NCBI GenBank assembly: GCA_016214285.1
Contig: JACROV010000044.1
Location: 1-54,316 of the forward strand
Origin: Candidatus Omnitrophota bacterium
Lineage (GTDB): Bacteria > Omnitrophota > Gorgyraeia > Zapsychrales > Zapsychraceae
Length of the DNA stretch: 54,316 nucleotides
Reading direction: 5' to 3'
The position numbers and the translations under genes are program-made. The notes below the pieces were generated by a model. That model was given only the letters and a program-made list of their open reading frames with translations, searched no databases and had not been told where the DNA came from. Positions 7,039 through 54,316 of this stretch are shown one piece after another. Numbering within the stretch: the stretch's first letter is position 1; every line of letters starts with the position of its first letter.

Positions 7039-7283
7039 TCACCGAGGTCTGTGAGGCAATTGCCGTGCTCAAACAGTCCTCGCTGTCGAGATAGTCCTGA
7101 ATTGGTTTAGCCATATTATCACCGAGCGAGTTCCGCAGCCGACACTTTTTCCTGCAAGTTAGTTTTGGAAAAAAGTGTCGTGCGAGGATGTTTGAGCGAA
7201 TGATAATATGGCTAAACCAAAATCGAAGAAATCTCTCCGCTGCGGAACTGCGCGCGGCAGATGCCTCACAGGCCCCGGTTAGC
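7039..7283. repeat. Complex inverted-repeat element overlapping the rsmA stop
   Basis: This fills the ~300-base gap between pilZ and rsmA. It has a 20-bp perfect inverted pair (TTGGTTTAGCCATATTATCA at 7102-7121 and its complement at 7201-7220). An inner pair CGACACTTTTTCC (7140-7152)/GGAAAAAAGTGTCG (7167-7180) differs by one base. Outer imperfect arms CTGTGAGGCA...TGCCG lie near 7045-7064 and 7252-7275. Two further blocks, GCTCAAACA-TCCTCGC (7066 and 7182) and GAGTTCCGCAGC (7128 and 7239), are each inverted but not nested. The right outer arm contains the rsmA stop codon. It may be a degenerate MITE. No convincing gene lies here. Confidence 0.6.
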
Positions 7284-17000: not shown

Positions 17001-17240
17001 TTATATTTTCGCGACGAGCGAGCGAACGGTATCGCTCATGCGGGCGCCGCGTTTGATCCATTGCTCGAGCTTCTCTTTGTTGATGGACACGGCCGCCGGT
17101 TTCTTGGACGGATCATAATGCCCGAGGATCTCCAGGTTCCTTCCCTGACGGGCAATGTTCCGCCCGATGGCGACCACCCTGTAATTGTAATGCTTGTTCG
17201 CGGACTTCCCTACTCTTTGCAACCTGATACGTACTTCCAT
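17001..17240 (-). CDS. rpsP: 30S ribosomal protein bS16
   Basis: A 79-residue bS16 with the family start VRIRLQRVGKSANKHYNYRVVA and the ILGHYDPSKKP and WIKRGARMSDTV blocks. The ATG at 17240 is preceded by CAGGAGACG. The common partners rimM, trmD and rplS are not adjacent; instead rpsP follows trpE and precedes yajC-secDF. Confidence 0.96.
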   Translation of the reverse strand: MEVRIRLQRVGKSANKHYNYRVVAIGRNIARQGRNLEILGHYDPSKKPAAVSINKEKLEQWIKRGARMSDTVRSLVAKI

Positions 17241-17274
17241 GTTTGTCGTCTCCTGTTTTTTACGATAATTAACC

Positions 17275-17397
17275 GATAACCATTCCGGTGATTCAACCTT
17301 TTTTGCCCAGATTCGCCATCGTTGTCACTACCAATCCTTCGTTCGCTAGAACGCTCCCTCCGGATTGGTATTGACCAGTAACCTTTTCTTCGGGACA
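17275..17397 (-). ncRNA. Structured intergenic element, copy 1 (trpE-rpsP)
   Basis: A 123-base element starts a few bases after the trpE stop and ends about 35 bases before rpsP. It is about 89 percent identical (hand count) to 21594-21715. On the minus strand it folds as a 14-bp stem, GTCAATACCAATCC with GGATTGGTAGTGAC (one A-G mismatch), capped by CGTTC-TAGC-GAACG. Between the two copies several stem changes are compatible with G-U pairing on this strand. A structured RNA or a MITE are both possible. Confidence 0.55.
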
Positions 17398-17400
17398 CTC

Positions 17401-18933
17401 TTAACACTGCGCCGCCAGTTCGATGGCCTTGAGCTGCGCTTTTGCTTTATTGACTGTTTCCTGGTATTCCCTGTTCGGCACCGAATCAGCCACGATGCCG
17501 GCCCCGGCCTGGACGTAAGCCTTCTTTCCCTTCACAATGATCGTCCTTATGGTGATACACGTATCCAGATTTCCCGAGAAACTGAAATACCCGATGCATC
17601 CCGCGTACGGGCCGCGGTCAACCCTTTCCAGTTCATCGATAATTTCCATCGCCCGGATCTTCGGGGCGCCGGAAACCGTCCCCGCCGGGAACGCGGCCTG
17701 CAACACGTCCAGCCCGTCCTTATCCTTGCGGAGCTTTCCCCGCACGTTGGAAACGATGTGCATGACGTGCGAATATTTCTCGATATTCATGAACTCCGTG
17801 ATCTGCACCGTGCCCTGCTCGCACACGCGGCCCAGATCATTGCGTCCCAGGTCGACGAGCATGATGTGCTCGACCTTCTCTTTGGGGTCGGCCAAAAGAT
17901 CCCTGGCAAGCGCCGCGTCCTGGGCCTCGTCCTTGCCCCGGGGACGCGTGCCGGCGATCGGCCGCGTTTCCACCACCCCATCCTCGCAACGGATCAGCAA
18001 TTCCGGCGAAGAGCCTGCGATGCAAACGTCGGCAAAATTCAGGTAATACATGTACGGCGACGGATTAAGCGAGCGCAACTTTCTATATATATTAAACGGT
18101 TCTGTCGTCAAGTCAACCGCAAATCTCTGGGAAAGCACCACCTGGATAATGTCCCCGGCCTGGATCCTCTCTTTCGCTTTTTCCACGATTTTTTCGAACT
18201 GGGGCGAGGTGAAATTCGACTTGACCTTCAAGGAAGCCGCCTTTTTGTCCCGGGCCGGTTTTACATTCACCACAAGCGGTTTGTTCAATTCGCGCACAAG
18301 CGTGTCGATGCGGGCAACGGACTTCTTATATTCCTGTAGTTTTTTCCGCGCTGAGCTTTTGGGGTCGACATAAGCGCAGCTGATCACCTTCATCTTATGA
18401 TTGATGTGATCGAAGATGACCAGGTCTTTGGCCAAAACAAGATAAGTGTCGGGCAGTTTCAGATCATCCTTGGTCGTATGAGGAAGTTTCTCGAAAAAGC
18501 GGACGATGTCGTAACCCAAATATCCCACCAGCCCGCCGCAAAAACGGGGCAGGCCCGCCGATAGGCTCCCTTCGGGAGGAGGCAAGGCAACGAATTTGTA
18601 TTGCCGAAGAATATCGCGGATGAACGACAGCGGCGTGTCTTTGACCTTCGCCGTCTGAACGGACGGCTTCTTGCCCGGCGCATAGCGGATAACCTTCACG
18701 GCGCCGTCCTTCGTCTGGATAACGACCTCCGGATCCCTGGCCAGGAATGAAAACCGGGCGACCTTCTCTTCCCCTTCGACGGATTCCAGCAGGAACGAAT
18801 ATTTGCTCTTACCCGCGATCTTGAAATACGCGGAGACCGGCGTTTCCAGGTCCCCCGATATTTCCCTGTACACGGGGATCAGGTTGCCCCGCTTCGTCAG
18901 ATTCAAGAATTCTTTTTCAGATGGAAAATACAT
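17401..18933 (-). CDS. trpE: Anthranilate synthase component I
   Basis: TrpE makes anthranilate from chorismate in tryptophan synthesis. The 510-residue protein has the N-terminal allosteric-domain pattern (LETPVSAYFKIA...SFLLESVEGEE) and LPRFCGGLVGYLGYDIVRFFE. The chorismate-binding core follows with NPSPYMYYLNF, GSSPELLIRCEDG, PIAGTRPRG and GAPKIRAMEIIDELE. The amidotransferase partner trpG is not adjacent. PabB is the main alternative, but the N-terminal pattern favours TrpE. The segment EGSLSAGLP, before FCGG, overlaps a GC-rich palindromic repeat. It is preceded by a 76-base gap with no clear ribosome binding site. Confidence 0.9.
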   Translation of the reverse strand: MYFPSEKEFLNLTKRGNLIPVYREISGDLETPVSAYFKIAGKSKYSFLLESVEGEEKVARFSFLARDPEVVIQTKDGAVKVIRYAPGKKPSVQTAKVKDTPLSFIRDILRQYKFVALPPPEGSLSAGLPRFCGGLVGYLGYDIVRFFEKLPHTTKDDLKLPDTYLVLAKDLVIFDHINHKMKVISCAYVDPKSSARKKLQEYKKSVARIDTLVRELNKPLVVNVKPARDKKAASLKVKSNFTSPQFEKIVEKAKERIQAGDIIQVVLSQRFAVDLTTEPFNIYRKLRSLNPSPYMYYLNFADVCIAGSSPELLIRCEDGVVETRPIAGTRPRGKDEAQDAALARDLLADPKEKVEHIMLVDLGRNDLGRVCEQGTVQITEFMNIEKYSHVMHIVSNVRGKLRKDKDGLDVLQAAFPAGTVSGAPKIRAMEIIDELERVDRGPYAGCIGYFSFSGNLDTCITIRTIIVKGKKAYVQAGAGIVADSVPNREYQETVNKAKAQLKAIELAAQC

Positions 18934-20943: not shown

Positions 20944-21567
20944 TCATGCGGAGGTGGATAATGCGTTAAAATTCCCAAGGATTTTAAGACCGACCGCCTG
21001 GCTTTTCTCCGGGTGGAACTGAACGCCGTAGATATTATCGACAGCGACGGCCGATACAAATTCGCCGCCATAATCCGTCGTTGCCGCGGCTGACCTGGCA
21101 TCCTTCGGCTTGACAAAATAGGAGTGACAAAAATAGACGTAGCTCAACGGCGCGATCCCTTTGAATAAACCATTCTCCGACGGAGCCTTTTTAAATTTAA
21201 GTTGATTCCATCCCATGTGAGGGACTTTCTGCTTCGTCGAAGAAAACCGTTCCACCTTGCCTTTGAGAATTCCCAGACCGTTCACATCCCCGCCTTCATT
21301 GCTCTTTTCAAAAAGCAGCTGCAACCCCAAACAGATCCCCAAAAACGGCTTTCCGGCGCTGATGGCCTGTTTCACGGCGGGGATCAATCCCAGCGCCTCG
21401 AGCTTTTCCATGGCCGGGCGCATCGCCCCTACGCCGGGCAAGATGATCCTGGAAGCCTTCGCGATATCCTCCGGCCTCTGGGTGATCTTTGCCCGGGCGC
21501 CGGCGCGTTCCATCGCTTTCTGGACACTGCGCAAATTCCCCATTCCGTAATCAATGATCGCGATCAT
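20944..21567 (-). CDS. hisH: Imidazole glycerol phosphate synthase subunit HisH
   Basis: HisH is the glutaminase subunit that feeds ammonia to HisF. The 207-residue class I amidotransferase has IDYGMGNLRSV, LPGVGAM, the nucleophile Cys in GICLGLQLLFE, and the His/Glu pair in GVQFHPEKSQ. The start at 21567 is preceded by GAGAG. The hairpin element copy 2 fills the space to hisB. Confidence 0.95.
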   Translation of the reverse strand: MIAIIDYGMGNLRSVQKAMERAGARAKITQRPEDIAKASRIILPGVGAMRPAMEKLEALGLIPAVKQAISAGKPFLGICLGLQLLFEKSNEGGDVNGLGILKGKVERFSSTKQKVPHMGWNQLKFKKAPSENGLFKGIAPLSYVYFCHSYFVKPKDARSAAATTDYGGEFVSAVAVDNIYGVQFHPEKSQAVGLKILGNFNALSTSA

Positions 21568-21593
21568 GTTCTCTCGTTTATATTCAGATAATT

Positions 21594-21715
21594 GATAACC
21601 ATTCCGGTGATTAACCCTTTCAGACCAGATTCGCCATCGTTGTCAATACCAATCCTTCGTTCGCTAAAACGCTCACTCCAGATTGGCATTGACCGGCAAC
21701 CTTTGGTTCGGGACA
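21594..21715 (-). ncRNA. Structured intergenic element, copy 2 (hisB-hisH)
   Basis: The second copy of the element at 17275-17397, in the same orientation, starting just after the hisB stop. The stem is GTCAATGCCAATCT with GGATTGGTATTGAC, capped by CGTTT-TAGC-GAACG. Relative to copy 1, three stem positions become G-U or U-G pairs. These would be mismatches if the other strand were transcribed. This favours folding in the mRNA of the flanking genes. No open frame is shared by the two copies. Confidence 0.55.
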
Positions 21716-21719
21716 ATTT

Positions 21720-22340
21720 CTAATCAATAATCCCTTTAGTGGAAGGCACCGCTCCTTTACGCCGGGGATCGACCTGTGTCGCCTGATCGAGCGCCAAGCC
21801 GAAGGATTTAAAAACTGTCTCCGTAATTGTATGTAAATCAGCAGTGGTTGAAGAATTATTGATCGTAATAATCATATTTGCACCTAACTGCTTCGCGAAA
21901 GAATCCATAAAATGCTCTAAATTTAAAAGATTATAACCTTCTTCTCCCACATGTGCTCCGGGACGGGTACCTTCAAAATTAAATTTACAATGCCCCCTTC
22001 CACTAATATCAACGACAGAATGTCCTAAAGTATCTTCCATCGGTGCAAAAGCAGATCCAAATCGACGAATTCCCTGCATCTCTCCAAGGGCTTTTTTGAA
22101 AATTTTGCCAAGAACAATTCCCACGTCCTCATTTGTGTGGTGAATATCGATCTCTAGATCTGCCTTAACCACTTCAAGATTTAAATCAAAACAACCATGA
22201 AAGGCAAACAGCTCAAGCATATGATCCAATAAACCAATATGCGTCTTGATTTTTGCCTTCCCTTGGCCGTCGATATTCAATTCCGCCTTGATCTCAGTTT
22301 CCTTGCTCTTTCGTTCCAGTTGTGCTTTTCGTTGTTCCAT
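21720..22340 (-). CDS. hisB: Imidazoleglycerol-phosphate dehydratase HisB
   Basis: HisB dehydrates imidazole glycerol phosphate. The 206-residue monofunctional enzyme has the metal-binding motifs FFLDH-type LLDHMLELFAFHG, DIHHTNEDVG, DISGRGHCKFNF and the C-terminal NSSTTADLHTITETVFKSFGLAL. An AAGGACACG site precedes ATG 22340. The gene is visibly richer in A+T than hisD and hisH beside it (for example 37 percent GC in 21841-21900 against 65 percent in 22801-22860, hand counted), suggesting a different history. Confidence 0.94.
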   Translation of the reverse strand: MEQRKAQLERKSKETEIKAELNIDGQGKAKIKTHIGLLDHMLELFAFHGCFDLNLEVVKADLEIDIHHTNEDVGIVLGKIFKKALGEMQGIRRFGSAFAPMEDTLGHSVVDISGRGHCKFNFEGTRPGAHVGEEGYNLLNLEHFMDSFAKQLGANMIITINNSSTTADLHTITETVFKSFGLALDQATQVDPRRKGAVPSTKGIID

Positions 22341-32265: not shown

Positions 32266-32381
32266 TTTTGTTGTCACCACAATCACCCCTGCCGCTTTAC
32301 TTTCGCAAAGCGAAGCGCGGGGGTTGATTCATCTTTTCTGGTTAATAAATTTCTTGTCCGCGCTTTAAGGATGGAGACGAA

Positions 32382-32798
32382 TCAATTGCACACATCGCCG
32401 GGGCAGCCTAATTTCGCACAGATATTTGCCGGCGCTGTCCCGGCACAGCGGACAGTTCCATCGATGTCAATGGTCAACGTGTAGTCATAACCGGATGCAT
32501 TGCGCCGGATCGAAGCGATCGGGTTCGCCGCGGCCGTCGTCGGTGCCACAAAATTCTTCGACACAGGAATTGTAATGTCTAAATCGCCGATAGTGGCCGT
32601 ATACACGCCATTCTCAAGATTATAAACTGCCTGGGCATTTCTTAACGTTTCAAGGATATTGATGGCTTCCGCGCTCCGGGATTTCTCGACCGTATCGGAA
32701 AACCGCGGGACGGCCAGCGCGGCCAAAATTCCAACGATAACGACCACGAAGATCAATTCAATGAACGTGAACGCTCCGTTTCTCCCGAATATCCGCAT
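32382..32798 (-). CDS. Type IV prepilin-like protein
   Basis: A 138-residue prepilin: leader MRIFGRNG, mature start AFTFIELIFVVVIVGILAALAVPRF with Glu at +5. It resembles the first prepilin (32890-33312): both have VPRF/LPRF-type helix ends, a VEKSRSAEAIN/VEFSKSTEALN helix and Tyr/Cys patterns, so they are likely duplicates. GGGAG six bases before ATG 32798 supports the start. Phe replaces Leu at the position before Ile-Glu. Confidence 0.87.
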   Translation of the reverse strand: MRIFGRNGAFTFIELIFVVVIVGILAALAVPRFSDTVEKSRSAEAINILETLRNAQAVYNLENGVYTATIGDLDITIPVSKNFVAPTTAAANPIASIRRNASGYDYTLTIDIDGTVRCAGTAPANICAKLGCPGDVCN

Positions 32799-41935: not shown

Positions 41936-42274
41936 CTATGGCCGCGGGGAAGGAGCCTGCCCGGCAATATAACTTTTACATCTCGGACACATAACAACGC
42001 CGCCCTGTTTATCGCTTATAAACACGTAAGTACAATATGGACACTGTTGCACCTGCTCAACGCTGGCGGCCGCGGTCTTTTCTTTGCCCCCATGGAAATT
42101 ATAAAATAGGGTTATGCCTTTGATGAACAGTGCAACAGGATTTCGTGCCCATCGTATGCTGGAAGTGGTAGTCAAGGGCATAACCCTATTATAAAATATC
42201 CATAGCACAAAAACAACGGCTAAAAGAATGGATAAGAAAATCGCTATGGCCAAAACAATGTCGACCTGGATCAT
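41936..42274 (-). CDS. Membrane-anchored zinc-ribbon protein carrying a 30-residue MITE insert
   Basis: A 112-residue protein: one membrane helix (VDIVLAIAIFLSILLAVVFVLWIF, 4-27), then 30 residues encoded by the miniature element and its target duplication (30-59, RVMPLTTTSSIRWARNPV onward, with FYN at 27-29 repeated at 57-59). A linker and a zinc ribbon (CPYC at about 78 and CPRC at about 97) follow. Without the insert the helix would lead directly into the linker. The reading frame is intact. The ATG overlaps the TonB-like gene stop (ATGA). Function unknown; the context is ExbB/ExbD and pilus genes. Confidence 0.7.
   Translation of the reverse strand: MIQVDIVLAIAIFLSILLAVVFVLWIFYNRVMPLTTTSSIRWARNPVALFIKGITLFYNFHGGKEKTAAASVEQVQQCPYCTYVFISDKQGGVVMCPRCKSYIAGQAPSPRP
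42108..42187 (+). mobile_element. 80-bp MITE, copy 1, in frame in the zinc-ribbon gene
   Basis: AGGGTTATGCCTTTGA at the left end and AGGGTTATGCCCTTGA (complement) at the right end: 16-bp inverted repeats with one mismatch. The flanking 10 bases ATTATAAAAT (42098-42107 and 42188-42197) are perfect duplicates. It is identical in sequence to 53975-54054, in opposite orientation. Eighty plus ten bases equals 30 codons, and the frame used has no stop. Confidence 0.92.
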
Positions 42275-49465: not shown

Positions 49466-49717
49466 CTATTTTCTTTTTGCCGCTTTTTTCTTTTTGCCTC
49501 CACGGACCATCTTGGCGCAAGAAATGTCACCGTGCTTGTCGATGAAGTAGAGGTATCCCCCCACCTTCTTGATGCCGACCTTGGCGACCTTCTTTGTCTG
49601 CCCGCCTTTTTTGCTGCCGCGGGCCATCTTCGCGCAGGACACGTCACCGTGCTTGTCCACAAAATAGAGGTATCCTTTTTCCTTCTTGACGCCTACTTTC
49701 GCTACTTTCTGAGCCAT
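49466..49717 (-). CDS. Small basic protein of two tandem repeats, unknown function
   Basis: An 83-residue lysine-rich protein composed of two near-identical units (residues 4-42 and 43-83). Each reads KVAKVG(V/I)KK, then GYLYF(V/I)DKHGD(V/I)SCAKM, then RG(S/G)KK. Each unit has one Cys, a YLYF strand and an invariant DKHGD. Basic tails suggest nucleic-acid or ribosome binding, which is inference. An ideal AAGGAGGTGA site and a terminator suggest a strongly expressed monocistronic gene. I do not recognise a named family. Confidence 0.8.
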   Translation of the reverse strand: MAQKVAKVGVKKEKGYLYFVDKHGDVSCAKMARGSKKGGQTKKVAKVGIKKVGGYLYFIDKHGDISCAKMVRGGKKKKAAKRK

Positions 49718-53661: not shown

Positions 53662-54156
53662 TTATTCTTTCTTATTCCCTTGATATGCTCTTTCTCTAAA
53701 CAAAATTTGCTTTTCTATCGCATCAAAAACATCTTCTGGTGCAGCAGTATCTATTCCATAGCTTTTTCTTGTAACCTTCAATATTATCTTTGTATCTGTA
53801 TCGCTAACCTTGCTCAAATTAAAACCAAAGATCTTTCCCGGGATGTTAAAATTAGGTCCGAAATCCCTCGCTGAAATTATACCTTTATCATAATCTTTTA
53901 TAAAAATTGTCGCACCCCAATCGTGTATCACATCTACAATGGCTAAAAAAGCATCATCGTAAGAATAACTAAATAGGGTTATGCCCTTGACTACCACTTC
54001 CAGCATACGATGGGCACGAAATCCTGTTGCACTGTTCATCAAAGGCATAACCCTATAACTAAATTGCTTTTCATATACATAGCCTGTACCCTCAATGTCT
54101 TTTTGGGAATGTACATTCAAATCATGCAAGTTAGCACAGCCGGCGAGTAATGGCAC
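53662..54156 (-). pseudogene. Lipoprotein gene, 5'-truncated by an IS and carrying an in-frame MITE
   Basis: The frame encodes a lipoprotein-like segment: FQALFIVPLLAGCANL, with the lipobox LAGC, but the part before VPLL has no start codon. The codons upstream run into the terminal repeat of an insertion sequence at 54183 and meet a stop. A GTG at 54154-54156 would leave only six residues before the Cys. Residues 35-64 (30 residues, counted from GTG) come from the MITE plus duplication. The rest (DDAFLAIVDVIHDWGATIFIKDYDKGIISARDFG) resembles small lipoproteins of unknown function. It may be inactive since the IS arrived. Confidence 0.65.
53975..54054 (-). mobile_element. 80-bp MITE, copy 2, in frame in the lipoprotein gene
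   Basis: The same 80 bases as at 42108-42187 in opposite orientation, without any difference. A perfect 10-bp duplication ATAACTAAAT flanks it (53965-53974 and 54055-54064). It duplicates Phe-Ser-Tyr in the host protein. It is read in the opposite direction to copy 1 relative to the host gene, giving a different stop-free peptide. Confidence 0.92.
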
Positions 54157-54182
54157 AATGAATAAAGCCTGAAAAATTTTAT

Positions 54183-54316
54183 AGGGTTATGCCCTTGATG
54201 ACCATTACTACTAAATCTTGTGGATATGATTCAATCTTTACCGCCATGAATATCTTGAGCCGTAACCGGAGCGATATTTACCGCTTGTTGGATAAGGCGG
54301 TAGAACAACAATCCAC
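54183..54316 (+). mobile_element. Left end of an insertion sequence sharing the MITE terminal repeat
   Basis: AGGGTTATGCCCTTGA at 54183-54198 matches the MITE ends, and the similarity extends to ATGACC. The neighbouring AAAATTTTAT (54173-54182) would be its target duplication. The element continues beyond the window. Confidence 0.7.
54198..54316 (+). CDS. Start of a probable transposase, runs off the window
   Basis: An open frame of 39 codons starts at the ATG within the terminal repeat (54198) or at 54246. It includes MNILSRNRSDIYRLLDKA, helical and polar like a transposase N-terminus. The catalytic region is not visible, so the family is not assigned. The 10-bp target duplications of the related MITEs would fit an IS4-type enzyme, but this is inference. 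Confidence 0.45.
   Translation, partial: MTITTKSCGYDSIFTAMNILSRNRSDIYRLLDKAVEQQS

Follow-up and report, generated by a model that had tools for sequence, protein, structure and literature searches.

The window considered here, a 54,316-nt stretch of DNA from an Omnitrophota genome (G000; 1.82 Mb in 104 contigs, 88% complete), carries a ~136-nt element, E1, in two related copies, both read on the minus strand and judged by eye to be non-coding. One copy lies in the his operon and the other beside a ribosomal protein gene; each abuts the stop codon of its upstream gene (hisB or a trpE-like gene), and a co-directional gene (hisH or rpsP) starts 19–27 nt on. An initial annotation of the window had described two ~122-nt copies, 89% identical, in the same orientation and placed after stop codons of co-directional genes, and this description is borne out; BLASTN of 21594–21715 against 17275–17397 gives 89% identity (E = 2.4e-39), and R1, a covariance model made from 15 E1 copies, widens the two to 21587–21721 and 17268–17403. 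The features are as follows.

21587–21721, minus strand: E1 copy C36b, between hisB and hisH (R1 match, 142.4 bits; the gap exceeds the empty site of the relatives G003 and G004 by 142–147 nt)
21642–21694, minus strand: exchangeable hairpin of C36b, with GTC..GAC arms (folding and covariation)
21587–21641, minus strand: conserved right block of C36b, AACGATGGCGAATC..AAAGG..CCGGAATGGTTATC (conserved columns; also kept in another genus with differing stems)
21695–21721, minus strand: conserved left block of C36b, CCCGAACCAAAGGTTGCC (conserved columns)
17268–17403, minus strand: E1 copy C36a, between the trpE-like gene and rpsP (R1 match, 137.1 bits; the gap exceeds the empty site of G002, G004 and G005 by 137 nt)
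17324–17376, minus strand: hairpin of C36a (fold, alignment and covariation)
20944–21567, minus strand: hisH, class-I glutamine amidotransferase (Pfam PF00117; named from its position beside hisB)
21720–22340, minus strand: hisB, imidazoleglycerol-phosphate dehydratase (IGPD domain; Pfam PF00475)
17401–18933, minus strand: trpE-like anthranilate synthase component I (Pfam PF00425 and PF04715)
17001–17240, minus strand: rpsP, ribosomal protein S16 (Pfam PF00886)
7104–7218, minus strand: lone copy of a partner element, E2, a 115-nt near-perfect palindrome

Do the two copies belong to their operons, or did they arrive there? At the trpE/rpsP junction, the unaligned gap is 159 nt in G000, whereas G002, G004 and G005 each have 22 nt; the spacer of G003 is 133 nt long and without E1, and G001 is not alignable on both sides. 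The gap between hisB and hisH is 148 nt in G000; the two relatives comparable on both sides, G004 and G003, have 1 and 6 nt, respectively (the other three are not comparable in this way). Elsewhere in G000, the gap at site C68a is 377 nt compared with 76 nt in G002, 52 nt in G005 and 42 nt in G003; E1 is also missing at site C68b from G004, G001 and G002, and at site C15a from G002, G004 and G003. At all five sites compared, E1 is thus absent from at least two relatives, and at C68b and C15a some relatives hold quite different palindromes in the gap. Site C15a, flanked by ThiF and sulphite-reductase-like genes, carries E1 in G001 as well, between the same two genes and reversed with respect to G000. 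At site C15b (G000 contig C15, 13263–13662), where an E2-E1 unit lies between two genes, G002 (contig C78), G004 (C24) and G005 (C180) have ~3.4–3.7 kb of other sequence, and an R1 search of this region in the three genomes gives no E1. C24 of G000 and C42 of G002 have common folE-like and phosphatase-like neighbours (names taken from protein starts alone) and E1 in the same orientation; because site and orientation are shared, at least one E1 insertion predates the split between G000 and G002. Judged from these sequence comparisons, the window copies are insertions rather than an ancestral leader of the his operon.

E1 is dispersed through its host genome. BLASTN of G000 with E1 yields 18 pieces and R1 finds 19 matches, which make 17 places once split and reverse-read matches have been merged; the two copies annotated initially are two of these. 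The covariance search of related genomes that had been proposed with them was productive, as R1 detects E1 in all six genomes of the genus, in 8 of the 32 family genomes and, under stricter filters, in 7 of 384 genomes sampled evenly across the phylum, among them G367, which belongs to a different family within the order. Matches to a conserved 20-nt E1 pattern occur in Omnitrophota UBA10147, Omnitrophica WOR_2 RIFCSPHIGHO2_01_FULL_52_10 and Omnitrophota OFTM390, and also in a MAG labelled Planctomycetales (Bin_37_8); pattern matches in a viral contig (L071) and in Actinobacteria, Chloroflexota and Thermogemmatispora (L065–L067) have no R1 match and are taken as chance. Searches of phage and plasmid collections returned no E1 match, and we therefore rejected a phage or plasmid origin; no Rfam family scores E1 at or above its gathering threshold, which rules out a known Rfam family. 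Literature searches for small repeats in Omnitrophica/Omnitrophota yielded no description of an E1-type repeat. E1 is a real, hitherto undescribed family of small mobile repeats; its broad type is known, but its host phylum has been little studied.

Other repeats were seen along the way. The window contains another palindromic repeat (ATAGGGTTATGCC..) at 42092–42203 and 53972–54056, which are 100% complementary to each other over 85 nt and have a third, related stretch at 54179–54222, as well as two adjacent 103-nt direct repeats at 49491–49710 (78% identical, spaced 117 nt). On other contigs of G000, a dispersed repeat of ~110–170 nt (C68, ~32333–32500; L097, 15334–15500) has many copies in this genome and some in G004, and a ~97-nt repeat (C15, 198–294; L099) has several copies in G000 and its genus-mates.

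E1 has no fixed relation to any gene. In a context table of 34 copies, in which the weak row G003:C46 (E 0.05) is retained and G004:C92 (E 0.0036) excluded, and for which genes were called by a simple home-made caller, 13 copies are sense to both neighbours, 7 antisense to both, 7 between divergent genes, 1 between convergent genes and 6 unresolved; the 17 places of G000 divide into 7 sense, 4 antisense, 3 divergent, 0 convergent and 3 unresolved. The gene downstream of E1 is sense in 21 cases and antisense in 11 (p ~0.11, our own binomial estimate), and these downstream genes are mutually unrelated. For one pair of loci, L106 (G000, contig C7) and L122 (G027, contig C42), an E1 copy lies close to a bioD/bioA-like fusion gene, which is 79% identical across the two genera, and to a small HTH gene that matches too; shared horizontal transfer is a possible explanation for the common presence of bioD/bioA-like gene, HTH gene and E1 in G000 and G027.

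Many E1 copies have a 5' extension, which is a separate palindrome, E2. The genus has nine E2 copies; eight adjoin E1 immediately on its 5' side and share its orientation, and the ninth is the lone copy in the window. E2 has terminal inverted repeats (score 18, reached in 0 of 2000 shuffles), whereas the ends of E1 have none (score 5, p = 0.70 versus shuffles). Apart from E2 copies, the pattern of the E2 ends turns up at a single site, in G001, and the search, which ran on incomplete genomes, thus shows no autonomous parent of this type; nor is one seen among the E1 loci of these incomplete genomes. At the two window sites, no convincing target duplication was found, just 5-nt matches that differ between the sites. 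The alternative offered in the initial annotation, the transcript of a MITE, was right in kind.

The hairpin of E1 (GTCAATACCAATC..GATTGGTATTGAC) is well supported. When 15 copies are aligned with MAFFT, 98.4% of the cells in the stem are paired, with 16 double-change cells compared with 3.9 in shuffles; in a model-fitted alignment of 32 rows, there are 75 double-change cells compared with 19.3 (0 of 500 shuffles). One of the 32 rows, counted in the latter test, is copy C7a, in which the whole 52-nt stem-loop is inverted and matches the reversed stem-loop of G027 at 96% identity. The stem can also be replaced: in G024 its sequence differs yet still pairs, with the left block (ACCGGTC) and the right block (GACAACGATGGCGAAT..AAAGGTTTAATCGCC) retained, and in G367 the stem differs while pairing and blocks are kept, as judged by eye. 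Some E1 copies have extra palindromes within or beside the hairpin.

Is one strand preferred? The initial annotation had stated that the stem differences give G-U pairs only when the minus strand is folded. For the window pair this is right for several of the differences (17268–17403 also has one plain mismatch), and the folding z scores of the two copies are -2.4 and -3.5 on the minus strand versus -1.4 and -2.9 on the plus strand; for the family at large, the argument is weak. A structure-fitted alignment from which C7a was removed gives 29 G-U versus 10 A-C, mostly in the outer helix; helices 2–4 alone give 12 versus 6 (p = 0.24), and an equal-penalty alignment of the arms gives 17 versus 9 (p = 0.17) for 26 of the 32 copies, the other six having been dropped for missing anchors or odd length. 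The family-wide G-U strand bias is suggestive only.

Several further candidate features within E1 were rejected. A further hairpin proposed for the right block has 0 pairs changed on both sides and is 84.4% paired, compared with 84.8% in shuffles. A candidate mini-ORF (ATG GCG AAT ..) conserved within the right block loses its frame in several copies, and the differences among the four G024 copies fall mainly on its first and second codon positions (both by eye). On the minus strand, sigma-70 promoters or intrinsic terminators are in no excess over chance; the plus strand has one weak promoter-like site at 21689–21717, and the promoter/terminator total is at chance level.

How, then, should strong covariation in a dispersed repeat be read? 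The initial annotation took the G-U-compatible changes as pointing to selection at the RNA level for a cis-regulatory or processing element between operon segments. Such an element could be a riboswitch-like leader or an mRNA-stability hairpin kept for its fold in the transcript. The stem covariation, the better fold of the minus strand, the persistence of pairing and blocks in G024 and G367 and the 7 of 17 G000 places with both flanking genes sense all agree with such an element. It would be hard to square with orthologous sites that are empty in relatives, with the antisense and divergent places, with downstream genes that are unrelated and before which E1 has neither a fixed sense orientation nor a conserved place, and with opposite orientations at the shared C15a site; the G-U bias falls short of significance, and the proposed second hairpin does not covary. 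The data accordingly lend no support to a his-operon regulatory RNA, and we consider operon RNA function quite improbable as an account of the family. Among the outcomes that had been named as speaking against it, mixed gene orientation was found, while absence of covariation and target duplications were not. Moreover, the covariation of E1 is no proof of RNA function because DNA template switching gives the same signal; PMC8604942 and PMC8794818 attribute arm homogenisation and spacer inversion to template switching between inverted repeats, and PMC8794818 adds that loop inversions accompanied by compensatory changes were extremely rare among the RNA genes it studied.

There is also the question of what moves E1. 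An enzyme acting in trans may recognise the conserved blocks and the hairpin and copy E1, and a single-strand, hairpin-reading HUH (Y1/TnpA) enzyme would be our first guess, at rather less than even odds. Y1 transposase genes are present in 26 of the 32 family genomes, namely 5 of 8 E1 carriers (G000, G001, G002, G024 and G027) and 21 of 24 non-carriers, and their occurrence does not follow that of E1; no E1 match adjoins the Y1 gene of G000 (contig C43) or the listed Y1 genes of other carriers. These observations, together with 17 copies instead of >100, make it unlikely that a resident RAYT (TnpA-REP, Y1 family) moves E1 as a REP/REPIN-like repeat, for all that the hairpin, the intergenic placement, the lack of a terminal inverted repeat and the abundance of Y1 genes in the family would fit such a repeat. 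Movement through RNA, as a small reverse-transcribed element, could draw on the better folding of one strand and on reverse transcriptase domains, found in 7 of the 32 family genomes and in 2 of the 8 carriers (a partial one in G000, and G027); the carriers G001–G005 and G024, several of them incomplete genomes, gave none, and we hold this route to be very improbable.

We favour, with a probability of about 82%, the reading of E1 as a non-coding, non-autonomous mobile DNA repeat of ~136 nt, an ERIC- or MITE-like palindrome consisting of left block, hairpin and right block, that has inserted in intergenic gaps, including tight operon junctions. What speaks against a mobile repeat is the lack of a terminal inverted repeat, a convincing target duplication or a known parent, and the excess of sense-oriented downstream genes; the compensatory changes above shuffles count against it as well, since selection on a folded strand gives the same. 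For the mobile repeat, stem pairing may be kept at least partly by DNA template switching, and in the his and trpE operons E1 is probably a tolerated passenger, lengthening the intergenic gap and adding a hairpin to the transcript. A more tentative extension, which we would not bet on, is that two conserved blocks surround a replaceable hairpin whose stems are swapped wholesale between lineages, with pairing restored by template switching, such that a DNA parasite shows strong 'RNA' covariation with no RNA function. In any event, E1 serves as a warning: paired stem changes are usually taken to demonstrate an RNA function, and here they are seen in an element that can insert in both orientations and has an inverted stem-loop in one copy.

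Among known systems, ERIC, also called RU-1, can fold into a hairpin. RU-1 is an enterobacterial intergenic repeat unit of 127 bp (PMC2759123), and E1 resembles it and other bacterial MITEs in length, non-coding nature, intergenic dispersal and hairpin, the likeness to ERIC being one of description. In contrast to these, E1 has no terminal inverted repeat, is hosted by Omnitrophota and has had its hairpin sequence replaced between genera. Of the hallmarks of a MITE, E1 is short, non-coding and dispersed, with empty sites in relatives; the terminal inverted repeats are found in E2. REP, BIME and REPIN sequences with RAYT (PMC2817692 and PMC3116915) are likewise intergenic palindromes in composite arrangements, and the likeness makes a hairpin-reading Y1 mover plausible; they number >100 copies with palindromes of 20–40 nt, whereas E1 has 17 places, ~136 nt and long conserved non-palindromic blocks, and the RAYT gene is flanked by its repeat, whereas no Y1 gene adjoins E1. 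Finally, hairpins maintained by template switching (PMC8794818 and PMC8604942) share with E1 the paired changes in the arms and the inversion of the spacer, which in C7a takes in the 52-nt stem-loop; those papers concern RNA genes and yeast coding DNA, whereas in E1 the process would operate within a mobile repeat.
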